Shown: positions 1,750-11,876 of the stretch, one piece after another
Layout: every line of letters starts with the position of its first letter
How positions within the stretch are numbered: the stretch's first letter is position 1
Virus record (IMG/VR): IMGVR_UViG_3300031673_000414
Coordinates: 1 to 26,358 of that record
DNA: 26,358 nucleotides
Source of the DNA: a virus
Direction: 5' to 3' (one strand)
Notes under the pieces: generated by a model
Seen by the model: the letters and a program-made list of their open reading frames with translations, nothing else
Database searches by the model: none
Told to the model about the DNA's origin: nothing
Made by a program: the position numbers and the translations under genes

Positions 1750-2436
1750 ATGCTAAAGGCGGTCATCCTCGATTCTAAGGAACCAGCAAGCATCAAGGCG
1801 TTAGATTTCGGTGTGCCTACGCTAGTCCAGCCGCTTAAATGTGGCGATTGCTGGCTGGCAACCGACAGTACCACACTTGTTGTAGAAAGAAAAACCTTGT
1901 CTGACCTGCTGGCCTCGATACGAGATGGCCGCCTTTTCGACCAGGCTGCCCGCCTCGTGGCACAAAGCAAGTGGTGCTACGAAGTCATCACAGAATTGCC
2001 AGTAGTGCGCTCTGGTTGCGTGTTCCTAAACGGGAAGATGAGCGAATGGAAATGGGCAAGCGTCCAGGGCGCACTACTCACCTTGCAGGAGATGGGTGTT
2101 GAGGTGGTATGGTGGGAAGGCGGTTACGTCCAGTGCTTGCAATGGCTGGCAGATCGTAGCCGCGATACCGTACACGTCAAACCTCAAAGGCGCGACATTG
2201 TAATGGAATCGCCTGCTGAGACTGTGCTTTGCTCACTTCCAGGCATAAGCGATGGTCGGGCAGGTGCTTTATTGGAACACTGCGGAACCGCCGCTTTTGC
2301 TCTGCAATTTCTCACTGGCAATGGTGGTGGAAGCATACCAGGTATTGGGCCAGGTACCAAGACCGCTGTAAGAAGCGCGCTGGGCCTGACAGACGATTTA
2401 GTGCTAACAGTTGTAGGAAAAGAGGAAACAGCATGA
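1750..2436 (+). CDS. ERCC4-family structure-specific nuclease with C-terminal HhH
   Basis: Seen: a 228-aa protein with the ERCC4 (XPF/Mus81) nuclease signature. An acidic segment around residues 33-39 precedes V-ERK (46-48), followed by D52 and S-I-x-DGRLFDQ (56-65). The C-terminus has two helix-hairpin-helix-like segments (LPGIS near 163 and IPGIG near 196). Known: ERCC4 nucleases cut branched or flap DNA, and phages use short versions like this as Holliday-junction or flap resolvases. Inference: it resolves recombination or replication intermediates together with the RecT-like protein and the PD-(D/E)XK nuclease encoded just downstream. An AGGAGG site precedes the ATG. The stop overlaps the next start (ATGA). 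Confidence 0.88.
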   Translation: MLKAVILDSKEPASIKALDFGVPTLVQPLKCGDCWLATDSTTLVVERKTLSDLLASIRDGRLFDQAARLVAQSKWCYEVITELPVVRSGCVFLNGKMSEWKWASVQGALLTLQEMGVEVVWWEGGYVQCLQWLADRSRDTVHVKPQRRDIVMESPAETVLCSLPGISDGRAGALLEHCGTAAFALQFLTGNGGGSIPGIGPGTKTAVRSALGLTDDLVLTVVGKEETA

Positions 2437-2639
2437 CCGACGAAGAAAAGCGCAGTTGCTATACCTGTGAACATCAAAGCCTGTGTTATCTCAAGCGCCA
2501 CATATACGATGCGTTGGTACCTAGCGCAGCATGGATGCTTGATAGCACGGGTTTACCACACGTATGGACGGATGTTTTTGACACGCTTGCAGAAGCGTGC
2601 AACCAGTACACGAAAATGAAAGGGGCAGAAACGAAATGA
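2433..2639 (+). CDS. Small Cys-containing hypothetical protein, 68 aa
   Basis: The start at 2433 is chosen because ATGA overlaps the nuclease stop; the open frame extends further upstream but only as a shadow of the nuclease gene. The N-terminus has C-x2-C-x5-C (CYTCEHQSLC) and another Cys near residue 58, possibly a small zinc site. The remainder is helical. It also overlaps the RecT-like gene by ATGA, so the three genes are translationally linked. Function unknown. Confidence 0.7.
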   Translation: MTDEEKRSCYTCEHQSLCYLKRHIYDALVPSAAWMLDSTGLPHVWTDVFDTLAEACNQYTKMKGAETK

Positions 2640-3484
2640 GCAACAAGAACTTAATCCCCGTCACCACGGGGGACACTTGGGCAACCATCAAGGCAATCGC
2701 GCCAGTGGCACAAGCATCAAGGATGTTTGGCGTTACCGAACAGCAAGCCGCGATTGTCATGCTTAAAGGTCACGAACTGGGCTTGGGCCTAGCAGGGGCC
2801 TTTGAGTTTATCCACGTTATTGACGGTAAACCTTCCCTCAGTCCCAAGGGGGCACTTGCCTTGATTCAGCGCAGTGGGGAACTGACCAGTTTGGAAATCC
2901 ACGACTTGACCGATGGCAAAGGCACTCCCACCCGTTGCAAAGTAACAATGAAGCGCAAGAATGGCTTTGAATACACGGTTGAATTCAGCATGGAGGATGC
3001 TAAACGCGCTGGCATAGTCAAGGACAAAGGTGCATGGGAAAAGTATCCTGCCAACATGCTCAGGTGGCGCGCAATAGGGTATTGCGCTGATGCGGTGTTC
3101 CCTGACGTGACTGGAGGCATGTTGAGGCCAGAGGAACTTGGCGCGGATGTGAACGCGGAAGGCACACCAATCGAGGCACCATCCTGGCATGTGGTAGAGG
3201 AAAAGCCACAACCTAACCCGCAATCTATCAAGGCAGAAGCACCTCCTGAGCCTGAGAAGGTAGAGCCAGCCAAGAACCCCGAGCCAGTCCAGGAGCCAGA
3301 AGCGCCAGCCAATGACATCCCCGACAACCTCACGGTGGCCGACCTTCTGAGCCGCGGTTATTCGGTGACCGACCTGCAGACGGCAATCCAGGCAATGCAA
3401 GCGGAAGGCGTAACGGTTCACTTCCCACCCGCTACGAGCGAAGAGTGCCGCTTAGTGCTGGAAAGGCTGGTGAAAAATGGTTGA
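2636..3484 (+). CDS. RecT-like single-strand annealing recombinase
   Basis: 282-aa protein. Residues 1-170 resemble the RecT/Bet family as seen in many phages: AFEFIHVIDGKPSLSPKGAL, then GFEYTVEFSMEDAKRAGI, then WEKYPANMLRWRAIG and a conserved VFPDVTGG segment. The stretch after about residue 185 is a Pro/Glu/Ala-rich linker, followed by a small helical C-terminal segment. Known: RecT-type proteins bind single strands and anneal complementary DNA in ATP-independent recombination. Inference: paired with the nearby Cas4/RecB-like nuclease, it forms a phage recombination system, the usual exonuclease-annealase pairing. The start at 2636 overlaps the previous stop by ATGA; an upstream in-frame ATG at 2597 has no support. 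The family call rests on motif memory, not alignment. Confidence 0.75.
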   Translation: MSNKNLIPVTTGDTWATIKAIAPVAQASRMFGVTEQQAAIVMLKGHELGLGLAGAFEFIHVIDGKPSLSPKGALALIQRSGELTSLEIHDLTDGKGTPTRCKVTMKRKNGFEYTVEFSMEDAKRAGIVKDKGAWEKYPANMLRWRAIGYCADAVFPDVTGGMLRPEELGADVNAEGTPIEAPSWHVVEEKPQPNPQSIKAEAPPEPEKVEPAKNPEPVQEPEAPANDIPDNLTVADLLSRGYSVTDLQTAIQAMQAEGVTVHFPPATSEECRLVLERLVKNG

Positions 3485-3674
3485 GTTCGTGCAAATTGCA
3501 GATGAGGCATTTAACCCTGCCTTGATAGAGTATGTGCGATTCTACACCAATGGACAGAAACGGGTGGCTGTTTGGTTCATAGGTGATGAAGAATGCATGG
3601 AATTTGCGGGCAGTAGTTATGATGCTTTTCTGGCTTGGTGGGAACGTCATGCCACTGTTAGGATGATGCCATGA
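3477..3674 (+). CDS. Small hypothetical protein, 65 aa
   Basis: Overlaps the RecT-like gene by 8 nt and the nuclease gene by 4 nt. The content is aromatic and acidic (VRFYTNGQKRVAVWFIGDEECMEF), suggesting a small beta-rich fold. It resembles KTSC-like small phage proteins in size and strand pattern, but the defining residues are not clear, so I leave the family open. Tight overlap on both sides supports it being translated. Confidence 0.65.
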   Translation: MVEFVQIADEAFNPALIEYVRFYTNGQKRVAVWFIGDEECMEFAGSSYDAFLAWWERHATVRMMP

Positions 3675-4489
3675 TGCAAGACCATCTTTCCCACTCCAGC
3701 ATAAACACCTACCTTCTTTGTCCACGATCGTGGCGCATGCGCTACGTGGACAAGGTACAGACGCCAAGCGCGTCAGCACTGGTTTTCGGCGGCGCTTTTC
3801 ACGACACTGTGGAGACCGCGCTTAGCGCGGTTGCTCAAGGCGAAACAAGTCCGCTTGCCACTTCTTGGCTCCTCAAGTTATGGTCAGAGAAGTGGCAAGC
3901 CAAGATTGCCAAAGAGCAAGTTGCCTGGGGTGACGAATCACCAGAAGAGTTGGCAGCACTTGGCGCGCGAATGCTAGGCAACAAGTTAGAAGTCTCGGGC
4001 GCTGGCCCGAACCGCATCGAAACTATGCCGCAGTTTCTCAGCAAGATTGTGCCTATGATGGACGATGACAAGCCAGCGATAGAGCGCAAAATCGAGTTGC
4101 GAGTGCCTGGCGTACCAGTGCCAGTGATAGGCTACATAGATATCGTTTGTGCCGATGGCGTTCCAGGTGACTTCAAAACAGCATCGCGCGCGTGGTATGC
4201 TGACAAAGCACACGAAGAAATGCAGCCTGTTTTCTATCTGGCAGCGCTCGCACAAATGGGTATGCCAGTACCCGATGGGAAATTCCGTTACTACATTTTC
4301 ACGAAAGCGCAGAAGCCAAAGGCACAAATAATCGAAACAAAACGCACACCCTCACAACTGCTATGGCTTTTTGAAGTCATCTCAGAAACTTGGCAGGCAA
4401 TCCAGGCAAGCAGTTTTCCCCCTAACCCGTGCACCTGGAAGTGCTCACCTGCCTATTGTGAATACTGGCAGATGTGCCGTGGTAAGTAG
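3671..4489 (+). CDS. PD-(D/E)XK exonuclease, Cas4/RecB-like, probable Fe-S
   Basis: 272 aa. Seen: N-terminal SINTYLLCPRSWRMRY (Cys17), G-x-x-FH-x3-E (H44, E48), VIGYIDIV with D157, DFKT with D167 and K169, and the QxxxY motif (Q185, Y189). The C-terminus carries four Cys (254, 258, 263, 269), which with C17 can supply a 4Fe-4S cluster as in Cas4 and AddB. Known: these enzymes degrade DNA ends to leave single strands. Inference: it supplies single-stranded substrate to the RecT-like protein two genes upstream. The start overlaps the previous stop (ATGATG). No Cas1 or Cas2 and no CRISPR array lies nearby, so a CRISPR-adaptation role is not supported. Confidence 0.85.
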   Translation: MMQDHLSHSSINTYLLCPRSWRMRYVDKVQTPSASALVFGGAFHDTVETALSAVAQGETSPLATSWLLKLWSEKWQAKIAKEQVAWGDESPEELAALGARMLGNKLEVSGAGPNRIETMPQFLSKIVPMMDDDKPAIERKIELRVPGVPVPVIGYIDIVCADGVPGDFKTASRAWYADKAHEEMQPVFYLAALAQMGMPVPDGKFRYYIFTKAQKPKAQIIETKRTPSQLLWLFEVISETWQAIQASSFPPNPCTWKCSPAYCEYWQMCRGK

Positions 4490-4956: not shown

Positions 4957-5226
4957 ATGAGGACAATAACCAGTATGTCACGATTCCGTTTTGAGGAACT
5001 GTGCAAGCAGATTGTAGATGGTAGTTTGGAGAAGAAATGGCGCATACTTGAAGGTCAAGAGAATTCATTGACCAAATCTCAGCAGGTGGAATTGCGCCAG
5101 ATCAGCGCAATAGCTGCTATCTATCGTGAGTCACCCGACACTATCACGCACGTAACCAGGACGGACTGGCGTGAGATTTGCTTCATGGTAAGAGGCGAAC
5201 AGTTACTTGTCAAGATAGTCAAATAG
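4957..5226 (+). CDS. Hypothetical protein, 89 aa
   Basis: Soluble helical protein with SRFRFEELCKQIVDGSLEKKW and a later strand-rich end (WREICFMVRGEQLLVKIV). An alternative start at 4975 (MSRF) is possible. The upstream ribosome signal is weak, so coupling to the preceding microprotein is likely. No family recognised. Confidence 0.65.
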   Translation: MRTITSMSRFRFEELCKQIVDGSLEKKWRILEGQENSLTKSQQVELRQISAIAAIYRESPDTITHVTRTDWREICFMVRGEQLLVKIVK

Positions 5227-5229
5227 ACA

Positions 5230-5271
5230 ATGAACATCAATGTTCTACCCTTATCTTACCAGTGGCAGATG
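5230..5271 (+). pseudogene. Remnant copy of helicase gene 5' end
   Basis: Fourteen codons starting at ATG 5230 encode MNINVLPLSYQWQM, matching the helicase start MNINFLPSQYQWQI at 5556. By eye 31 of 42 bases match. Four mismatched codons (3, 4, 7, 14) differ only at the third base, two codons are wholly different, and one differs at the first base. The remnant frame continues with no helicase similarity and stops at 5323-5325. It sits just before the MazG-like gene. The best reading is a leftover 5' end of a diverged helicase gene, displaced when MazG arrived. Confidence 0.6.
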
Positions 5272-5281
5272 TGGAGGAAGC

Positions 5282-5566
5282 ATGAAAACATTACAGCAGG
5301 CAGTCAAGCAATTATACCAAACTAGAGAATATACAAAGGCCAGTATACAAACATTAGTTCTGGGAGCGGTTGGGGAAATGGGCGAATTGGCAGAAGCAAT
5401 TTTATTGTCACAGTGCCCCGACTTCAAACCATCACTTAGAAAGCAAGCATTGCAAGTTGACAGACAAGATATAGCGCGTGAGGTAGGGGACTGTATCACA
5501 TACCTCTTGGGACTCTGTAATGCGCTGGATATAGAACCATATTTTGGGTGGCAGGATGAACATTAA
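5282..5566 (+). CDS. MazG-like nucleotide pyrophosphohydrolase
   Basis: 94 aa. All-alpha NTP-PPase motifs are visible: GEMGELAEAI (E32, E35, E38) and EVGDCITYLLGLCNALDIE (E67, D70), the paired ExxE / ExxD metal site. Known: MazG-type enzymes hydrolyse (d)NTPs to monophosphate and pyrophosphate. Phage copies are thought to adjust nucleotide pools or alarmone levels. The start at 5282 follows GGAGGAAGC; the frame opens earlier at 5240 but without a ribosome site. It overlaps the helicase start by 11 nt, and it is preceded by a remnant of the helicase 5' end, which suggests it was inserted here. Confidence 0.85.
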   Translation: MKTLQQAVKQLYQTREYTKASIQTLVLGAVGEMGELAEAILLSQCPDFKPSLRKQALQVDRQDIAREVGDCITYLLGLCNALDIEPYFGWQDEH

Positions 5567-8384
5567 CTTTCTACCTAGTCAGTACCAGTGGCAGATATTC
5601 GCTTTTGTCCAGGGTGGGCAAGGGCATGGCGTAATCGAGGCAGTCGCAGGCAGTGGGAAGACGACCACGATTGTAACTGCTACTCAGTTGACTAACCCGA
5701 CTGCTAAGGTGGCATTTGTGGCATTCAACAAGCACATAGCCGATACATTAGGCGACCGGGCACCAGCACACGTACATGCCTCTACTCTGCATAGCCTAGG
5801 CTTTGCGAACATCCGCCGGGCGTGGGGCAATGTCCAGGTTGACAAAGACAAGCTAAAGCACATCTTGGCAAACCACAAGGCCAATGGCTATGACAGTTCT
5901 GTGCTTAAGCTCGTTTCACTGTGCAAAGCTATTCTGCGCGAACCCGCTCCTATGACTCTTGATTACATAGCAGACAGATGGGACATAGATGTGCCCGAGG
6001 AAGAGCGCAATTCCATCTACCGTCTTACCAGCACAGTCTACCGCGAAAGCCTAGAGCAACACCAGACAATTGACTATGACGATATGATTTACTTCTGCGC
6101 TAGTGGCATGGTTGGCTGCCAGAAGTTTGACATTCTTTTTGGCGACGAAGTGCAAGATTGGAACCGGGCACAAATTGAGATGGCCTTGAAAAGTGTCAAG
6201 CCAAACGGCCGTATTATAGGGGTGGGCGACAGGAACCAGTCTATTTACGGATTCCGCGCAGCAGACGTTGACGCAATCCCCAATTTAATCAAGGCCACAG
6301 ACGCCAGTACTTTACCTCTAAGCATCTGCTACCGTTGTCCCTCTTCCCACGTGGCGCTTGCTCAACAGTTGGTGCCAGAGATTGAGGCCAGAGAGGATGC
6401 ACCGGAAGGCGTTATTGAGGACATAGAGCAATGGAAGTTAACTGAGCGCGTGCGACCAGGTGACTTAGTAATCTGTCGCTGCAACGCGCCTCTTGTGAGG
6501 CCGGCCATGCGCTTAATCTCACAAGGTATCAAGGCAGTCATCCTCGGTAGGGACATCGGGCAAGGTCTTATGGCTTTACTCAGAAAAGTACAGAAGCAGC
6601 GAAACACTTTTGATCTACTCTCTACCCTCATGGCATTAAGCCAGTATGTATCTGCTGAGAGTGCCAAGATGTATGCTAGTGGAAAGGCAATGAAAGCGCA
6701 AAGTCTGCAAGATAGGGCAGACACAATCGAGGCGCTGGCAGAAGGTTGCCAGTCTTTCAGCGACTTGGAAGCCAAGATAGCGCAAGTTTTCAGCGACGAC
6801 CAGCAAGGTATTACTTTCAGCACAGTACACCGCGCTAAGGGTACTGAGGCTGATAGGGTCTTCATCCTGGAGCCGCGGCTAATGCCCCACCCGAAAGCCT
6901 CCAAACCCTGGGAAGTGCAACAGGAACGCAATATCAAATATGTGGCACTGACTAGAGCAAAGCAGGAGTTGTATCTTGTCAATGGCTCTACTCCTGGTCA
7001 GCTCGCCTCGCTTCCCGAAGGCGACGCGCCGCAGGTGCCGCAGGCGGGCGCCGTGGTGTCAAGTATGCCGTTTCTTGACAATGGCAGGGGCGACCAACGG
7101 AAAAACGGCGGCATTACTGATCAAGACTTCCGGACCGATAGAACAGGGCAAGTTAGTGGGACATTTTATGGTCTCACTCCAGGCAACCTCGGCAACCTGC
7201 CCGCCGGCGATCCTCCCGCCAGATATACTAATTTTGAAGGAGTTAATCATGAGTCAGCAACAGAGAGTGCAGGAAATAGTCCAGATGTACCGTTCAGGAA
7301 TGAGCGGGATGGAGATAGCAGAAAAGCTCAATCTGACAGACACGAGAGTCTATCAAATACTCAGACAGGCTGGGCAGCCAACCAGGAACCAGAGCGATGC
7401 CTTGACGAATGCCTACCAGAGAGGACGGGCAACTCCGTCGGAAATCTTGACCAATTATCAATTGTCGCCAGAACAAATCGAGAAAAGGGCAGAGAAGATA
7501 CGGGGCAAGAACCACTGGAACTGGAAAGACGGCAAGGGCCAGAGAGGGTACAGGAGGATCAAAAAGAAAGAGGCTTGTGCGAATTGCGGGGCAATGAGCC
7601 GCCTAGTCATTCATCACTTGAATCTCGACCATTACGACAATCGGGAGGAGAATCTACAGGTATTGTGCAAGAGTTGTCATGCACGTCTCCATGCCGTGAT
7701 GCAAAACAGAGCGCGCAGGGAGGGGAAGCCAATACCGAAGTCAAATGGCCCGGTAGGATGGACAAAGTAGGTGACCCTCAACGGCGCGGCGACAGGAACA
7801 TGACGGCGGAGTATGGTGCGACTGAGGGCCAGTTGGGCGCGATGCGGGAGGGGGTGGCGGTACAGGTACAGGCGAGCGTGTCCAGTCCGCCATTTGAGGC
7901 AAGTGTAAATACCATGAGTGAAAAGGCGGTAAAGAGATACGATGGTTGGGCCAAGAACCCAGATGGCAGTAACCGCGTGGCCCGTTCACTCATCGGTAAT
8001 GGTTACGGCCAGGCGGACGGCCAACTCGGTACCGAGTCCGGCACCACATTTTGGGCCGCATCCGCCGAGATCATGCGCCAGGTCTACCAGGTCCTTGCGC
8101 CTGGAGCGGTTGCAGTGTGGGTGTGCAAAGCGTTCGTCCGCAAGGGTGAGCGGGTTGACTTCCCAGGCCAGTGGCAGGCACTTGGCGAATCCTGTGGCTT
8201 TGAAACGCTAGAGATAATCCGCGCGTGGCTGGTAGAAGATAACGGCGCGCAGCATACCCTCGATGGCGGCCTAGATATACGGCAAGTACAGCGCAAGAGC
8301 TTCTTTCGCCTGCTTGCCGAGCAGAAGGGTTCACCTAAGATAGACTACGAAATTGTATTGATTCAACGAAAAGTGAAGGAGTAA
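5556..8384 (+). CDS. UvrD-like helicase fused to a partial DNA methyltransferase
   Basis: 942-residue open frame. Residues 1-480: SF1 UvrD/Rep-like helicase with Walker A AGSGKT (31-36), DEVQD (197-201), GDRNQSIYGFR (224-234), TFSTVHRAKGTEAD and YVALTRAK (462-469). Then, without a stop, methyltransferase-type repeats appear: PGQLASLPEGD, VVSSMPF, YGLTPGNLGNLPAGD and YGATEGQLGAMREG. Motif IV SSPPF is at 776-780, followed by VYQVLAPGAVAVWVCK and a typical phage methylase end (RKSFFRLLAEQKG). A 'FxGxG' SAM-binding motif I is not obvious, so methylation activity is uncertain. Residues about 565-738 are low-complexity and coincide with an HNH gene in another frame. Start 5556 is chosen by homology to the remnant at 5230. 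Real product could be fusion, or helicase plus separately started methylase. Confidence 0.8.
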   Translation: MNINFLPSQYQWQIFAFVQGGQGHGVIEAVAGSGKTTTIVTATQLTNPTAKVAFVAFNKHIADTLGDRAPAHVHASTLHSLGFANIRRAWGNVQVDKDKLKHILANHKANGYDSSVLKLVSLCKAILREPAPMTLDYIADRWDIDVPEEERNSIYRLTSTVYRESLEQHQTIDYDDMIYFCASGMVGCQKFDILFGDEVQDWNRAQIEMALKSVKPNGRIIGVGDRNQSIYGFRAADVDAIPNLIKATDASTLPLSICYRCPSSHVALAQQLVPEIEAREDAPEGVIEDIEQWKLTERVRPGDLVICRCNAPLVRPAMRLISQGIKAVILGRDIGQGLMALLRKVQKQRNTFDLLSTLMALSQYVSAESAKMYASGKAMKAQSLQDRADTIEALAEGCQSFSDLEAKIAQVFSDDQQGITFSTVHRAKGTEADRVFILEPRLMPHPKASKPWEVQQERNIKYVALTRAKQELYLVNGSTPGQLASLPEGDAPQVPQAGAVVSSMPFLDNGRGDQRKNGGITDQDFRTDRTGQVSGTFYGLTPGNLGNLPAGDPPARYTNFEGVNHESATESAGNSPDVPFRNERDGDSRKAQSDRHESLSNTQTGWAANQEPERCLDECLPERTGNSVGNLDQLSIVARTNREKGREDTGQEPLELERRQGPERVQEDQKERGLCELRGNEPPSHSSLESRPLRQSGGESTGIVQELSCTSPCRDAKQSAQGGEANTEVKWPGRMDKVGDPQRRGDRNMTAEYGATEGQLGAMREGVAVQVQASVSSPPFEASVNTMSEKAVKRYDGWAKNPDGSNRVARSLIGNGYGQADGQLGTESGTTFWAASAEIMRQVYQVLAPGAVAVWVCKAFVRKGERVDFPGQWQALGESCGFETLEIIRAWLVEDNGAQHTLDGGLDIRQVQRKSFFRLLAEQKGSPKIDYEIVLIQRKVKE
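7249..7770 (+). CDS. HNH homing-type endonuclease nested in another frame
   Basis: 173 aa, in the +1 frame relative to the helicase-methyltransferase frame. Residues 8-42 form a helix-turn-helix (SGMSGMEIAEKLNLTDTRVY). Residues 110-148 form a zinc-bound HNH: CANC, VIHHLNLD, ENLQVLC, CKSCHARLH. An AAGGAG site (about 7237-7241) lies 7 nt before ATG 7249. The frame is open upstream to 6976, but that part looks like a shadow of the other gene. Known: HNH endonucleases of this kind spread by cutting and invading phage genes. Inference: it invaded between methyltransferase repeat units, and the host frame remained open through it. Very likely a real gene because all HNH residues are intact. Confidence 0.85.
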   Translation: MSQQQRVQEIVQMYRSGMSGMEIAEKLNLTDTRVYQILRQAGQPTRNQSDALTNAYQRGRATPSEILTNYQLSPEQIEKRAEKIRGKNHWNWKDGKGQRGYRRIKKKEACANCGAMSRLVIHHLNLDHYDNREENLQVLCKSCHARLHAVMQNRARREGKPIPKSNGPVGWTK

Positions 8385-8392
8385 ATTACAAA

Positions 8393-9733
8393 ATGGGGCA
8401 GCAAGTCGAAACTGAAAAAGAAACGAAAAAGAGAACGGCAGTAGCAACTCACACTGAGATAGCGCGGATGTATTGGATGAAGCGCATGGCCGACACCCTA
8501 TATAGTAGAGGTCAATTCTACCGCTATGGGGAAGGCGTGTGGGAACCGATTCATGACCTACTTATAAGCAGAGAGTTATGGCGACATCTAACAGCCTACG
8601 AAGAAAAAGGCGTTCGCCCAACTCGGGATGTGAAAAACTCGGTGGGTGATGCTATCAAGGCAGAGTTATTCATCCCAGAAGACTGTCTGGATGCGAATGA
8701 GAACTTAGTGAACTTAGCAAACGGTATCTACGACTTGAGTACCCAAACCTTGCTACCTCACAACCCGGCGCAGTATTTGACGACGCAACTGCCATTTGCC
8801 TACGATGCGCAAGCATCGGCAGTGACATGGCAAATGTACCTCATGTCTACGTTCGTCAAACCCAGGTCGGTAGAATACGACCAGGAACTTGCGGAATTTG
8901 TGCAAGAGGCTGTTGGCTACTCACTTACAACCTCAGTTTGCCATCACTGCACCTTCTGGTGCTATGGAGAAGGTGCAAATGGAAAGGGTGTGCTTTTCCA
9001 CGTTCTTGAGCAGTTGGGAGGTACCGCTTGCACACCTCTTAATGTCGGTATTCTAGGCCGCGAACAGTATCAACTTGCCAGCCTTGCTGGTAAGCGTATC
9101 GCACTTTGTACGGAGGCTAGCGCTACAAAGAACCTCGTTGCGGATGACTATGTTAAGATGTTGGTAGCTGGTGATTCCATGCCAGTCCGTCAGATTCGCA
9201 AGGAACCGTTTACATTGACACCAACAGTTCACTTATGGTGGGCCATGAATGAACTGCCAGCAGTCGCCGACTCGTCAGAAGGCTTCTGGCGTCGTGTGAT
9301 GGTTGTCCCATTCAACCGTCAATTTGCTACAAACGAGCGTATCCTAGACATGAAGGAGCGCTTGATACCCGAGTTGCCGGGCATTTTCAATTGGGCTATG
9401 CAAGGTCTGAAACGCCTACGAGATAGGGGCAGATTTGTGTTACCCTCTCAGGTGGCAGAGTCTACAAAGCAATATCGCCAGGACGCAAACCCTGTGGCGC
9501 TTTTCATTGCTGATGAATGCTACGAAGGCAAAGACTTGAAAGAACAATCATCAGTGCTTTATGATGCTTATAAGGCGTGGTGCTTTACAAACAATTACAA
9601 GCCCCACTCTAGCAGGAACTTTAAGCACGAAATGGAGCGCTTGAACCATCACTACAAGCCAGAAACAGCCTTTCGTACTTTTATGGGTGTTACGCTAAAG
9701 ATACCGCCACCGAAAGAAAAAGGCAAGTCTTAG
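8393..9733 (+). CDS. D5-type SF3 replicative helicase (primase-helicase C-terminal family)
   Basis: 446 aa. Contains the D5_N region with NLANGIYDLSTQTL (near 107-120), Walker A GEGANGKG (192-199), a later ALCTEAS acidic motif, WWAMNELPAV as sensor segment and FWRRVMVVPF. The last 90 residues resemble a winged-helix DNA-binding end. Known: these proteins form hexameric helicases in phage and plasmid replication (P4/D5 type), usually fused to or paired with a primase. Here the primase is the Prim-Pol gene 370 bp past the non-coding region. The ribosome site AAGGAG precedes the start, 8 nt after the upstream stop. Confidence 0.9.
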   Translation: MGQQVETEKETKKRTAVATHTEIARMYWMKRMADTLYSRGQFYRYGEGVWEPIHDLLISRELWRHLTAYEEKGVRPTRDVKNSVGDAIKAELFIPEDCLDANENLVNLANGIYDLSTQTLLPHNPAQYLTTQLPFAYDAQASAVTWQMYLMSTFVKPRSVEYDQELAEFVQEAVGYSLTTSVCHHCTFWCYGEGANGKGVLFHVLEQLGGTACTPLNVGILGREQYQLASLAGKRIALCTEASATKNLVADDYVKMLVAGDSMPVRQIRKEPFTLTPTVHLWWAMNELPAVADSSEGFWRRVMVVPFNRQFATNERILDMKERLIPELPGIFNWAMQGLKRLRDRGRFVLPSQVAESTKQYRQDANPVALFIADECYEGKDLKEQSSVLYDAYKAWCFTNNYKPHSSRNFKHEMERLNHHYKPETAFRTFMGVTLKIPPPKEKGKS

Positions 9734-10263: not shown

Positions 10264-11050
10264 CCTAGAATCAGCATTGCAGTGGCGCGCGCTCGGGATT
10301 GCTTGTATACCCATCTTGGCAGGTAGCAAGAGGCCAGCACTTGAAAGCTGGCACCAGTACCAGAACGAATTGCCAACAGAGGCGAAATTGAGAGCGTGGT
10401 TTTCGACCGGTTACAATATCGCCGTCATCACAGGTCACAGGAACTTGGTAGTGGTAGACGTGGACGATCCGACTTTGTGCAATGCGTGGGAAACGTTAGC
10501 CGAGATGGATACCTACCACGTCCAGACTGCGCGCGGATGGCATTACTATCTCTATATAGAAGATGAGGTAAAGTGCTGGAAGGGGGAGGGTGTTGACGTG
10601 AAAGCGGCCGGCGGATACGTGCTGGCACCTCCGAGCATTCACCCATCCGGTCATCAGTATCGAGGCTTTGGCTCACCTGAGTGCATCCTGAGAGTGCATA
10701 GCATTAAAGAGATCCTGCCAGAATACGAACCACCTGCTGTGATTGCGCGCGTATCGAGGCCGGCAGATCCGTATGATATGGCGATGCGCGACCCGGTAGG
10801 CTTTTCGGTAGCAGACATCAAGGCTACTTGGCACTGGGAAGATGTGCTACCAGTTAATGGAACCGCTCGCCGTGGGGTTGTAATGGTTAACTGCCCATTC
10901 CACGCAGACGAACACGCCTCGATGGCACTCTATCCCGATAAACACGCGCATTGCTTTGGATGTGGTCTACATTTATCCATCATAGATTTCTTTGCGCTGC
11001 TACATAACCTAACAATCCCAGAAGCGATGAGGAGCATGGCCAATGGCTAA
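10256..11050 (+). CDS. Prim-Pol type primase with C-terminal CHC2 zinc finger
   Basis: 264 aa. Residues 5-150 match the bifunctional primase-polymerase (AEP) fold: ALGIACIPILAGSKRPALESW, YNIAVITGHRNLVVVDVDD (catalytic D68, D70), TARGWHYYLY (H96), then GVDVKAAGGYVLAPPSIHPSG. The C-terminus has a CHC2-type zinc finger: CPFH (213-216) and CFGC (233-236), followed by IIDFFALLHNLTIPEAM. Known: Prim-Pol proteins make primers and sometimes extend them; CHC2 fingers recognise the template. The order is swapped from DnaG, where the finger is N-terminal. The start at 10256 overlaps the upstream small gene; an earlier in-frame ATG at 10184 lies inside that gene. The stop overlaps the HNH gene by 8 nt. 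Confidence 0.87.
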   Translation: MTSLESALQWRALGIACIPILAGSKRPALESWHQYQNELPTEAKLRAWFSTGYNIAVITGHRNLVVVDVDDPTLCNAWETLAEMDTYHVQTARGWHYYLYIEDEVKCWKGEGVDVKAAGGYVLAPPSIHPSGHQYRGFGSPECILRVHSIKEILPEYEPPAVIARVSRPADPYDMAMRDPVGFSVADIKATWHWEDVLPVNGTARRGVVMVNCPFHADEHASMALYPDKHAHCFGCGLHLSIIDFFALLHNLTIPEAMRSMANG

Positions 11051-11876
11051 AAAGACTTGTATTGATTGTGGGAAGCGAATTAGCAGAGGTGGCACCCGTT
11101 GTAAAAGTTGTGCTCAAAAAGCAATCTGGACACCTGGACGCAAAGCGCGATATTCTAAGCGTGTAAAGGCGGCTTGGCAAGAAGGGATATATGGGAATGA
11201 TGAGCATAGAGAGAAATTGTCAGAAGCCAAAAAGAGAGATTGGGAAAATGGAGTTTACAACGTAGAGCGGGCTTGCTATACTGAGTGCAAGATATGTGGG
11301 GAGAAGTTTCTTGTATTGCCGAGCCAAGTAGCATTGGGCTGGGGGCGTTTTTGTTCTATAGCTTGTAAAAATAAAGCGCAGTGTGGTGAGGGCAATCCCA
11401 TGAATGGCAAAGGGAAATTTGGTAAAGAAAACCCCAACTGGCGCGGTGGCATAAGTTCATCAGTAGTGGTCAGGATTTGCGAGGTATGCGGAAAGGAATT
11501 TGAGGCAACACCATATCAAATCAAATTAGGTACTGGCCGATATTGCTCAAGAAATTGTCAAGGCGTTTGGCTATCGGGGCATTTATCAGGTCCTAATAAT
11601 GTCAACTGGTGTGGCGGCCATGACTCATATCGAGGTCCTAATTGGCACAAGCAAGCCAAGAAAACACGCAAACGAGATGGGTATATTTGTCAAAGTTGTG
11701 GGCTTTCACAAGAAGGGGCTGGGCGCAAATTGGATGTGCATCATATAATGCCGTTTCGGGAATTTGAGAACTATCAAGATGCTAACCAGTTAGAGAACTT
11801 AATTACTTTATGCCAGTATTGCCATTTGACTATTGAACATGAACAACGAGTGCTACAAAAGGAGATGGCAAGATGA
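11043..11876 (+). CDS. HNH endonuclease with repeated zinc-binding modules
   Basis: 277 aa. Three N-terminal Cys modules (C6-x2-C9/C20-x2-C23; C82-x2-C85/C104-x3-C108; C146-x2-C149/C168-x3-C172) precede an HNH core: CQSC (216-219), DVHHIMPF (H233, H234), ENLITLCQYCH (N252, C257, C260, H261). NPNWRGG and GPNNVNW segments are typical spacers in phage HNH proteins. It overlaps the primase stop by 8 nt (ATGGCTAA) and the next gene by ATGA. Known: free-standing HNH genes are selfish elements within phage operons. It is not closely similar to the HNH at 7249, so two separate arrivals are likely. Confidence 0.88.
   Translation: MAKKTCIDCGKRISRGGTRCKSCAQKAIWTPGRKARYSKRVKAAWQEGIYGNDEHREKLSEAKKRDWENGVYNVERACYTECKICGEKFLVLPSQVALGWGRFCSIACKNKAQCGEGNPMNGKGKFGKENPNWRGGISSSVVVRICEVCGKEFEATPYQIKLGTGRYCSRNCQGVWLSGHLSGPNNVNWCGGHDSYRGPNWHKQAKKTRKRDGYICQSCGLSQEGAGRKLDVHHIMPFREFENYQDANQLENLITLCQYCHLTIEHEQRVLQKEMAR

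Follow-up and report, generated by a model that had tools for sequence, protein, structure and literature searches.

How can an endonuclease gene lie inside another coding gene while the outer reading frame stays open? By the usual view, a homing endonuclease enters a coding gene in one of only two ways, by means of a splicing device (intron or intein) or by breaking the gene. The stretch of DNA analysed here (the window, 26,358 nucleotides) is a single 26-kb contig of an uncultivated tailed phage, in which a predicted HNH endonuclease gene is read out of frame within a much longer open reading frame. The features of the locus are listed below.

5556-8384, + strand: long host frame of 942 amino acids, open throughout (a helicase, then methyltransferase modules, the HNH region read in the alternate frame, and the C-terminus of the methyltransferase)
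5556-6983, + strand: UvrD/SF1-like helicase, residues 1-476 (Pfam UvrD, E 1e-17; phrog_1967, E 4e-88)
6984-7221, + strand: two methyltransferase-type linker modules (STPGQLASLPEGD..AVVSSMPF and YGLTPGNLGNLPAGDPP) without the AdoMet-binding core, assigned by module family and by identity to the methyltransferase ORF L001
7222-7770, + strand: putative inserted element of 549 bp (183 codons), made up of a leader and the HNH ORF, delimited by comparison with L001 4085-4260
7236-7242, + strand: Shine-Dalgarno sequence GAAGGAG of the HNH gene, read directly from the sequence
7249-7770, + strand: intact gene for a predicted HTH-HNH endonuclease of 173 amino acids, matching phrog_7545 and HTH_28
7771-8384, + strand: module DPQRRGDRNMTAEYG..VSSPPF and C-terminal domain of the methyltransferase, with 66% amino acid identity to L001

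The inner gene is predicted to encode a DNA-cutting HNH endonuclease. Its product starts with a helix-turn-helix (HTH_28, E 7e-7) and has the HNH domain at its C-terminal end (phrog_7545, E 2e-14), with the motif CxxC...HH...N...CxxCH, in which C110, C113, H123, N135, C140, C143 and H144 were invariant in the alignment. Six bases separate GAAGGAG from the ATG at 7249. The structure model contains a beta-beta-helix at residues 119-157 (pLDDT about 73-83), moderate in this region and of low confidence globally. Sequence and fold searches of the PDB yielded nothing convincing, the best fold match being an HNH nickase at a non-significant E value of 0.19. The intact ORF and the two family matches agree with an earlier sequence-only reading, which had placed a complete HTH-HNH gene in the +1 frame at this position. 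Searches of IMG/VR and of phage and plasmid records found no close relative of the protein, only distant matches to part of it, and no second copy of the element. The window contains another HNH gene, of the zinc-finger type and free-standing (11043-11876), which overlaps its neighbours by a few bases.

The host gene runs from the ATG at 5556 to the TAA at 8384 (942 codons). The sequence-only reading had called it a helicase-methyltransferase, a label that is only partly right because the helicase is complete while the methyltransferase is a C-terminal part without its AdoMet-binding half. In phage DNA methyltransferases of the L001 type, an N-terminal core (motif I DPFGG and the first SSPPY) precedes modules of the form YGxTxGQLGxMPxGD..AxVSSPPY, whose number varies, and these are followed by a C-terminal domain. 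Of the features expected of an N6/N4-type DNA methyltransferase, motif I for AdoMet binding (DPFGG) and the first catalytic SPPY are lacking, since the N-terminal core was absent from the whole window; the helicase is thus joined in frame to the module region. In the helicase relatives L008, L009 and L010, identified by tblastn, the gene ends within a few to about 20 codons of the point corresponding to 6983. The linker modules share 77.6% DNA identity with L001 over 85 nt from position 6989 (dN/dS 0.30), and the region 7771-8384 has a dN/dS of 0.28 against L001 (0.14 in its core) and a predicted fold that best matches the DNA methylase TTHA0409 (2zie, E 4e-3). The methyltransferase pieces on both sides of the HNH gene are collinear with L001 and share one frame. 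By its dN/dS, the C-terminal part looks like a protein that was under purifying selection in the past. Alone, it cannot be an active methyltransferase; it may be a dying remnant, and selection on the host frame would therefore be weaker.

Relatives of this methyltransferase without an HNH gene exist, and none was found with an HNH gene nested within it. A search of phage records with the methyltransferase C-terminus and the N-terminal core gave no match, nor did a search of genome contigs with the C-terminal profile. The methyltransferase ORFs (L001, L003, L012, L015, L017, L020, L022, L023, L025, L026, L027, L029 and L032) have variable numbers of diverse tandem modules, every one of which contains an SSPPY-like catalytic motif, and in L017 and L027 extra modules follow the C-terminal domain. 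The arrangement suggests target recognition that is modular and perhaps multi-specific. In L002 (482-1917), a frameshift between core and modules splits the methyltransferase into two overlapping frames.

Is the long frame open across the HNH gene by chance? The HNH gene is offset by +1 from the long frame or, equivalently, the long frame is +2 of the HNH gene. Within 7249-7770 the long frame contains no stop codon, the other alternative frame on the same strand contains 12, and the antisense frames contain 4, 10 and 4. We permuted synonymous codons within the HNH gene, preserving its protein and codon usage, and this predicted 5.3 stops in the long frame (p = 4.5e-4 to 7e-4). When codons were drawn from the codon usage of the phage, 8.9 stops were expected and 0 of 20,000 draws were open. 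The figure of 0.0002 originally estimated from uniform codons was thus roughly right. Stops were not generally depleted in the window's 32 remaining gene segments (observed/expected 0.98 and 1.02), and the HNH gene was the sole case below 0.001 among 66 gene-frame tests in the window. A Bonferroni correction for these 66 tests gives p of about 0.03; because the sequence-only reading had singled the case out, some look-elsewhere effect is left, and more across windows. The long frame is also the only frame in phase with both flanks and the only one for which selection would be predicted. In other genes of about 50% GC, none of 319 overlapping segments of 174 codons per frame had an open alternative frame on the same strand. 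We conclude that the openness of the long frame across the HNH gene exceeds chance; the invaded frame, as had been claimed, stayed usable in the sense that it has no stop and remains in phase on both sides. Its reading of the insert is strongly hydrophilic (mean hydropathy 0.35 versus 0.48 in the helicase), consistent with the disordered segment that had been suggested. The HNH frame is itself stop-free over the 99 codons that precede its ATG, which leaves the two frames jointly open from 6952 to 7767.

Comparison with L001 placed the left edge of the element near 7222, to within about 10 nt, leaving a leader of about 27 nt before the HNH gene. The right edge coincides exactly with the HNH stop codon TAG, and methyltransferase homology restarts at 7771 (GTGACCC). 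This edge lies inside a module, DPDKRGGLFR/DPKRRGDRN (spelled out as SDDPDKRGGLFR/DPKRRGDRN), that is present in 7 distinct relatives, as would be expected of a homing site, although this falls short of proof. At the insertion site, the window lacks about 24 codons that the L001 module has. Therefore, the insertion was not clean and came with replacement.

Insertion of an HNH gene out of frame into a phage methylase is not new. Arsenault, Gosselin and Gogarten (2025) described the ShiLan domain, a mobile element that sits in an actinophage methylase without introducing a stop into the methylase frame; its HNH gene starts 18 bp in and ends within the last four bases (PMC11855218). The same study reported a second, unrelated out-of-frame insertion in the helicase-methylase gene of Pacc40, gp60 (PMC11855218). 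Like the ShiLan insertion, the window element has its HNH gene in a DNA-modification gene, in frame as an insert, with a stop-free host frame, a short leader, a right edge formed by the stop codon, no sign of splicing, and a disordered-looking host-frame product. The two differ in that their HNH proteins share 33% identity over only 46 amino acids, the HTH-HNH protein of the window lacks the flanking zinc fingers of ShiLan, the host frame is +2 of the HNH gene in the window and +1 in ShiLan, and GC is 51% and 67%, respectively. The methyltransferase of the window belongs to a different family and is truncated, and the insertion site is another; neither the ALKP/EPIxxARKPL methylase site nor the +1 host frame of the ShiLan lineage was found for the window HNH gene. 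The ShiLan insertion is mobile (PMC11855218), whereas mobility of the window element, for which no second copy was found, is putative. Pacc40 resembles the window in having a helicase-methylase host with an out-of-frame ORF for a nuclease-like protein, but its host is a different helicase-type protein that contains an intein and in which DPFGG is intact, the helicase part is where the insertion is located, and the two nucleases have no detectable similarity. HNH endonucleases that are free-standing in phages (PHROG 7545 and others) share with the window protein the HTH-type N-terminus, the HNH domain and a start signal of their own, but they occupy their own gene slot; none of the 10 free-standing genes tested had an open alternative frame on the same strand. 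Because the match to ShiLan covers only 46 amino acids and the host offset is +2 and not +1, we conclude that the window element is an unrelated, independently evolved case of the published strategy, with a different HNH protein, host gene and frame offset, at 51% GC.

The same shuffle test gave 0 stops versus 1.8 expected for the ShiLan HNH frame (p 0.034). It was uninformative for Pacc40 (0 versus 0.0 expected), where amino acid and codon content fully account for the openness. The ShiLan paper reports no detectable ribosome-binding site (PMC11855218); contrary to this, GGAGG is present a few bases before the GTG start of the ShiLan HNH gene (L036, 6580-6594).

To extend the comparison beyond single cases, we searched IMG/VR with a profile built from nested HNH proteins and obtained 80 loci, with 73 usable ShiLan-type HNH genes. 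In 17 of the 73, all from uncultivated viruses (L043-L050, L052-L054, L056, L058, L059, L061, L062 and L066), the HNH gene is nested in a different frame of a longer ORF, which extends 104 codons or more beyond it on either side. Throughout these 17 loci the host offset is +1 and the methylase-like flanks align at one site (ALKPxxExVxxAxKP / EPIxxARKPL), while GC ranges from as low as 0.36 up to 0.66; the lowest chance probabilities of openness (P0) were 0.001 (L058) and 0.005 (L062). Open +1 frames numbered 18 in the survey versus 6.1 expected from synonymous shuffles, and 9 versus 1.36 among the 63 genes with P0 below 0.2. The total of +1-frame stops over all 73 genes matched expectation (300 versus 300), so that it is the nested copies that are depleted in stops, not the family in general. 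The excess among the 63 genes makes it plausible that openness of the host frame is selected. This evidence is strong but not clean, since loci that are related do not count as independent and since nested cases went into the profile.

Other arrangements came to light elsewhere. The DNA methylase of Cylindrospermopsis phage Cr-LKS3 (L037, 1977-3827) contains an out-of-frame HNH gene whose product is 48% identical to that of ShiLan and which is absent from the 2025 paper. Gordonia phage GAL1 (L039, 1329-2216) has an out-of-frame HNH gene in the middle of a nucleotide-kinase-like gene, an instance of the strategy beyond methylases, with the host frame at +2 of the HNH gene and 0 stops versus 3.0 expected (p 0.03). 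In MKC-IRE-02 (L038), an HNH gene (2495-2863, + strand) lies antisense within a methylase gene (1947-3500, - strand) whose frame is open across it (0 versus 1.8 expected, p 0.09). Bombitas (L040) was rejected as a nested case; its host gene seems to be broken, because the annotated methyltransferase continues in the next gene. In phage Jung (L033, gp55 and gp56), the HNH start resembles a copy of the adjacent methyltransferase start (1345-1390 and 1806-1850; MTKPYYQDDQVTLY / VTLYYEDDQVQLF).

Our favoured reading, with a probability of about 0.62, is that 7222-7770 is an insertion of the homing type that does not splice and follows the strategy of ShiLan, in which a compact HNH gene, preceded by a short leader, interrupts a coding gene without shifting its frame. 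Ribosomes from the helicase start would read on to 8384 and produce a 942-residue protein with about 183 residues of disordered insert, while separate ribosomes would initiate at 7249 to produce the endonuclease. This enzyme would cut alleles free of the insertion, and repair would copy the element into them. An open host frame would limit the damage to the host gene, which is our proposed reason for the absence of stops. Of this scheme, the data show the intact frames, the start signals, the lack of a splicing signature and the non-chance openness; that the two frames are both translated, that the enzyme cuts and homes, and that the C-terminal tail has any function is inferred. Against it stand the lack of a close HNH relative, the unclean insertion, the absence of motif I, the look-elsewhere factor of 66, and the HNH structure model, with its low global confidence and lack of a significant PDB fold match.

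The chief alternative is that the HNH gene was inserted recently into a methyltransferase that the helicase fusion had already truncated, with a frame open by luck owing to T-poor and G-rich third positions and with a useless tail past residue about 480. We consider it unlikely. The missing AdoMet-binding core fits a host that was already damaged, alternative frames are often open in GC-rich genes, and the open frame of Pacc40 needs no selection. The probability of about 5e-4 on the gene's own codon usage must also be set against the many genes and windows that were looked at. Luck explains less well why none of the 319 segments of this length per frame from other genes at about 50% GC was open, why the open frame is the one in phase with both flanks, and why open host frames exceeded expectation in the class survey. 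A misassembly, in which the helicase of one phage was joined to a methyltransferase piece of another, is improbable. It would account for the missing N-terminal methyltransferase half and for the rise in GC over 7800-8250, and it gains some room from the window being a single uncultivated contig and from the search of other viral contigs, in which the helicase/methyltransferase junction did not turn up. However, the two parts meet in frame, near the point at which the helicase relatives stop, and the neighbourhood fits, as L012 has a homologue of the window exonuclease gene (3671-4489) upstream of the same methyltransferase family. An artefact of this kind would, moreover, leave the HNH region itself unexplained.

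Two further rivals have very little probability. Phage group I introns commonly carry HNH endonucleases, so that a self-splicing intron or an intein comes to mind, but no Rfam match was found in 5000-9000 at E values up to 1, and no group I or group II catalytic RNA core was detected. The non-ORF sequence of about 27 nt is too short for a ribozyme. No intein was found at the element, and the HNH gene cannot be part of one because it is out of frame. Equally remote is a +1 frameshift before 7249 that would yield a helicase-HNH fusion. The shared stop-free stretch from 6952 would permit it, but the good Shine-Dalgarno sequence and the ATG serve the HNH gene directly, and the openness of 6985-7221 is uninformative since only 0.7 stops are expected there.

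Beyond this locus, a broader possibility, which we put forward tentatively and at somewhat less than even odds, is that unrelated HNH lineages have independently arrived at stealth overprinting as a general strategy, with synonymous sites selected to keep the host frame open and the insert translated without splicing. The window case would then exemplify it outside the ShiLan lineage, in another frame and at moderate GC. Out-of-frame insertion represents a third route by which homing endonucleases enter coding genes, and the window case together with the survey makes this route quantitatively testable, as host frames are open above the shuffle level where GC makes openness unlikely. If true, annotation pipelines that retain only the longer ORF would hide such nucleases, and the synonymous sites of an endonuclease gene would be shaped by the gene it has invaded.
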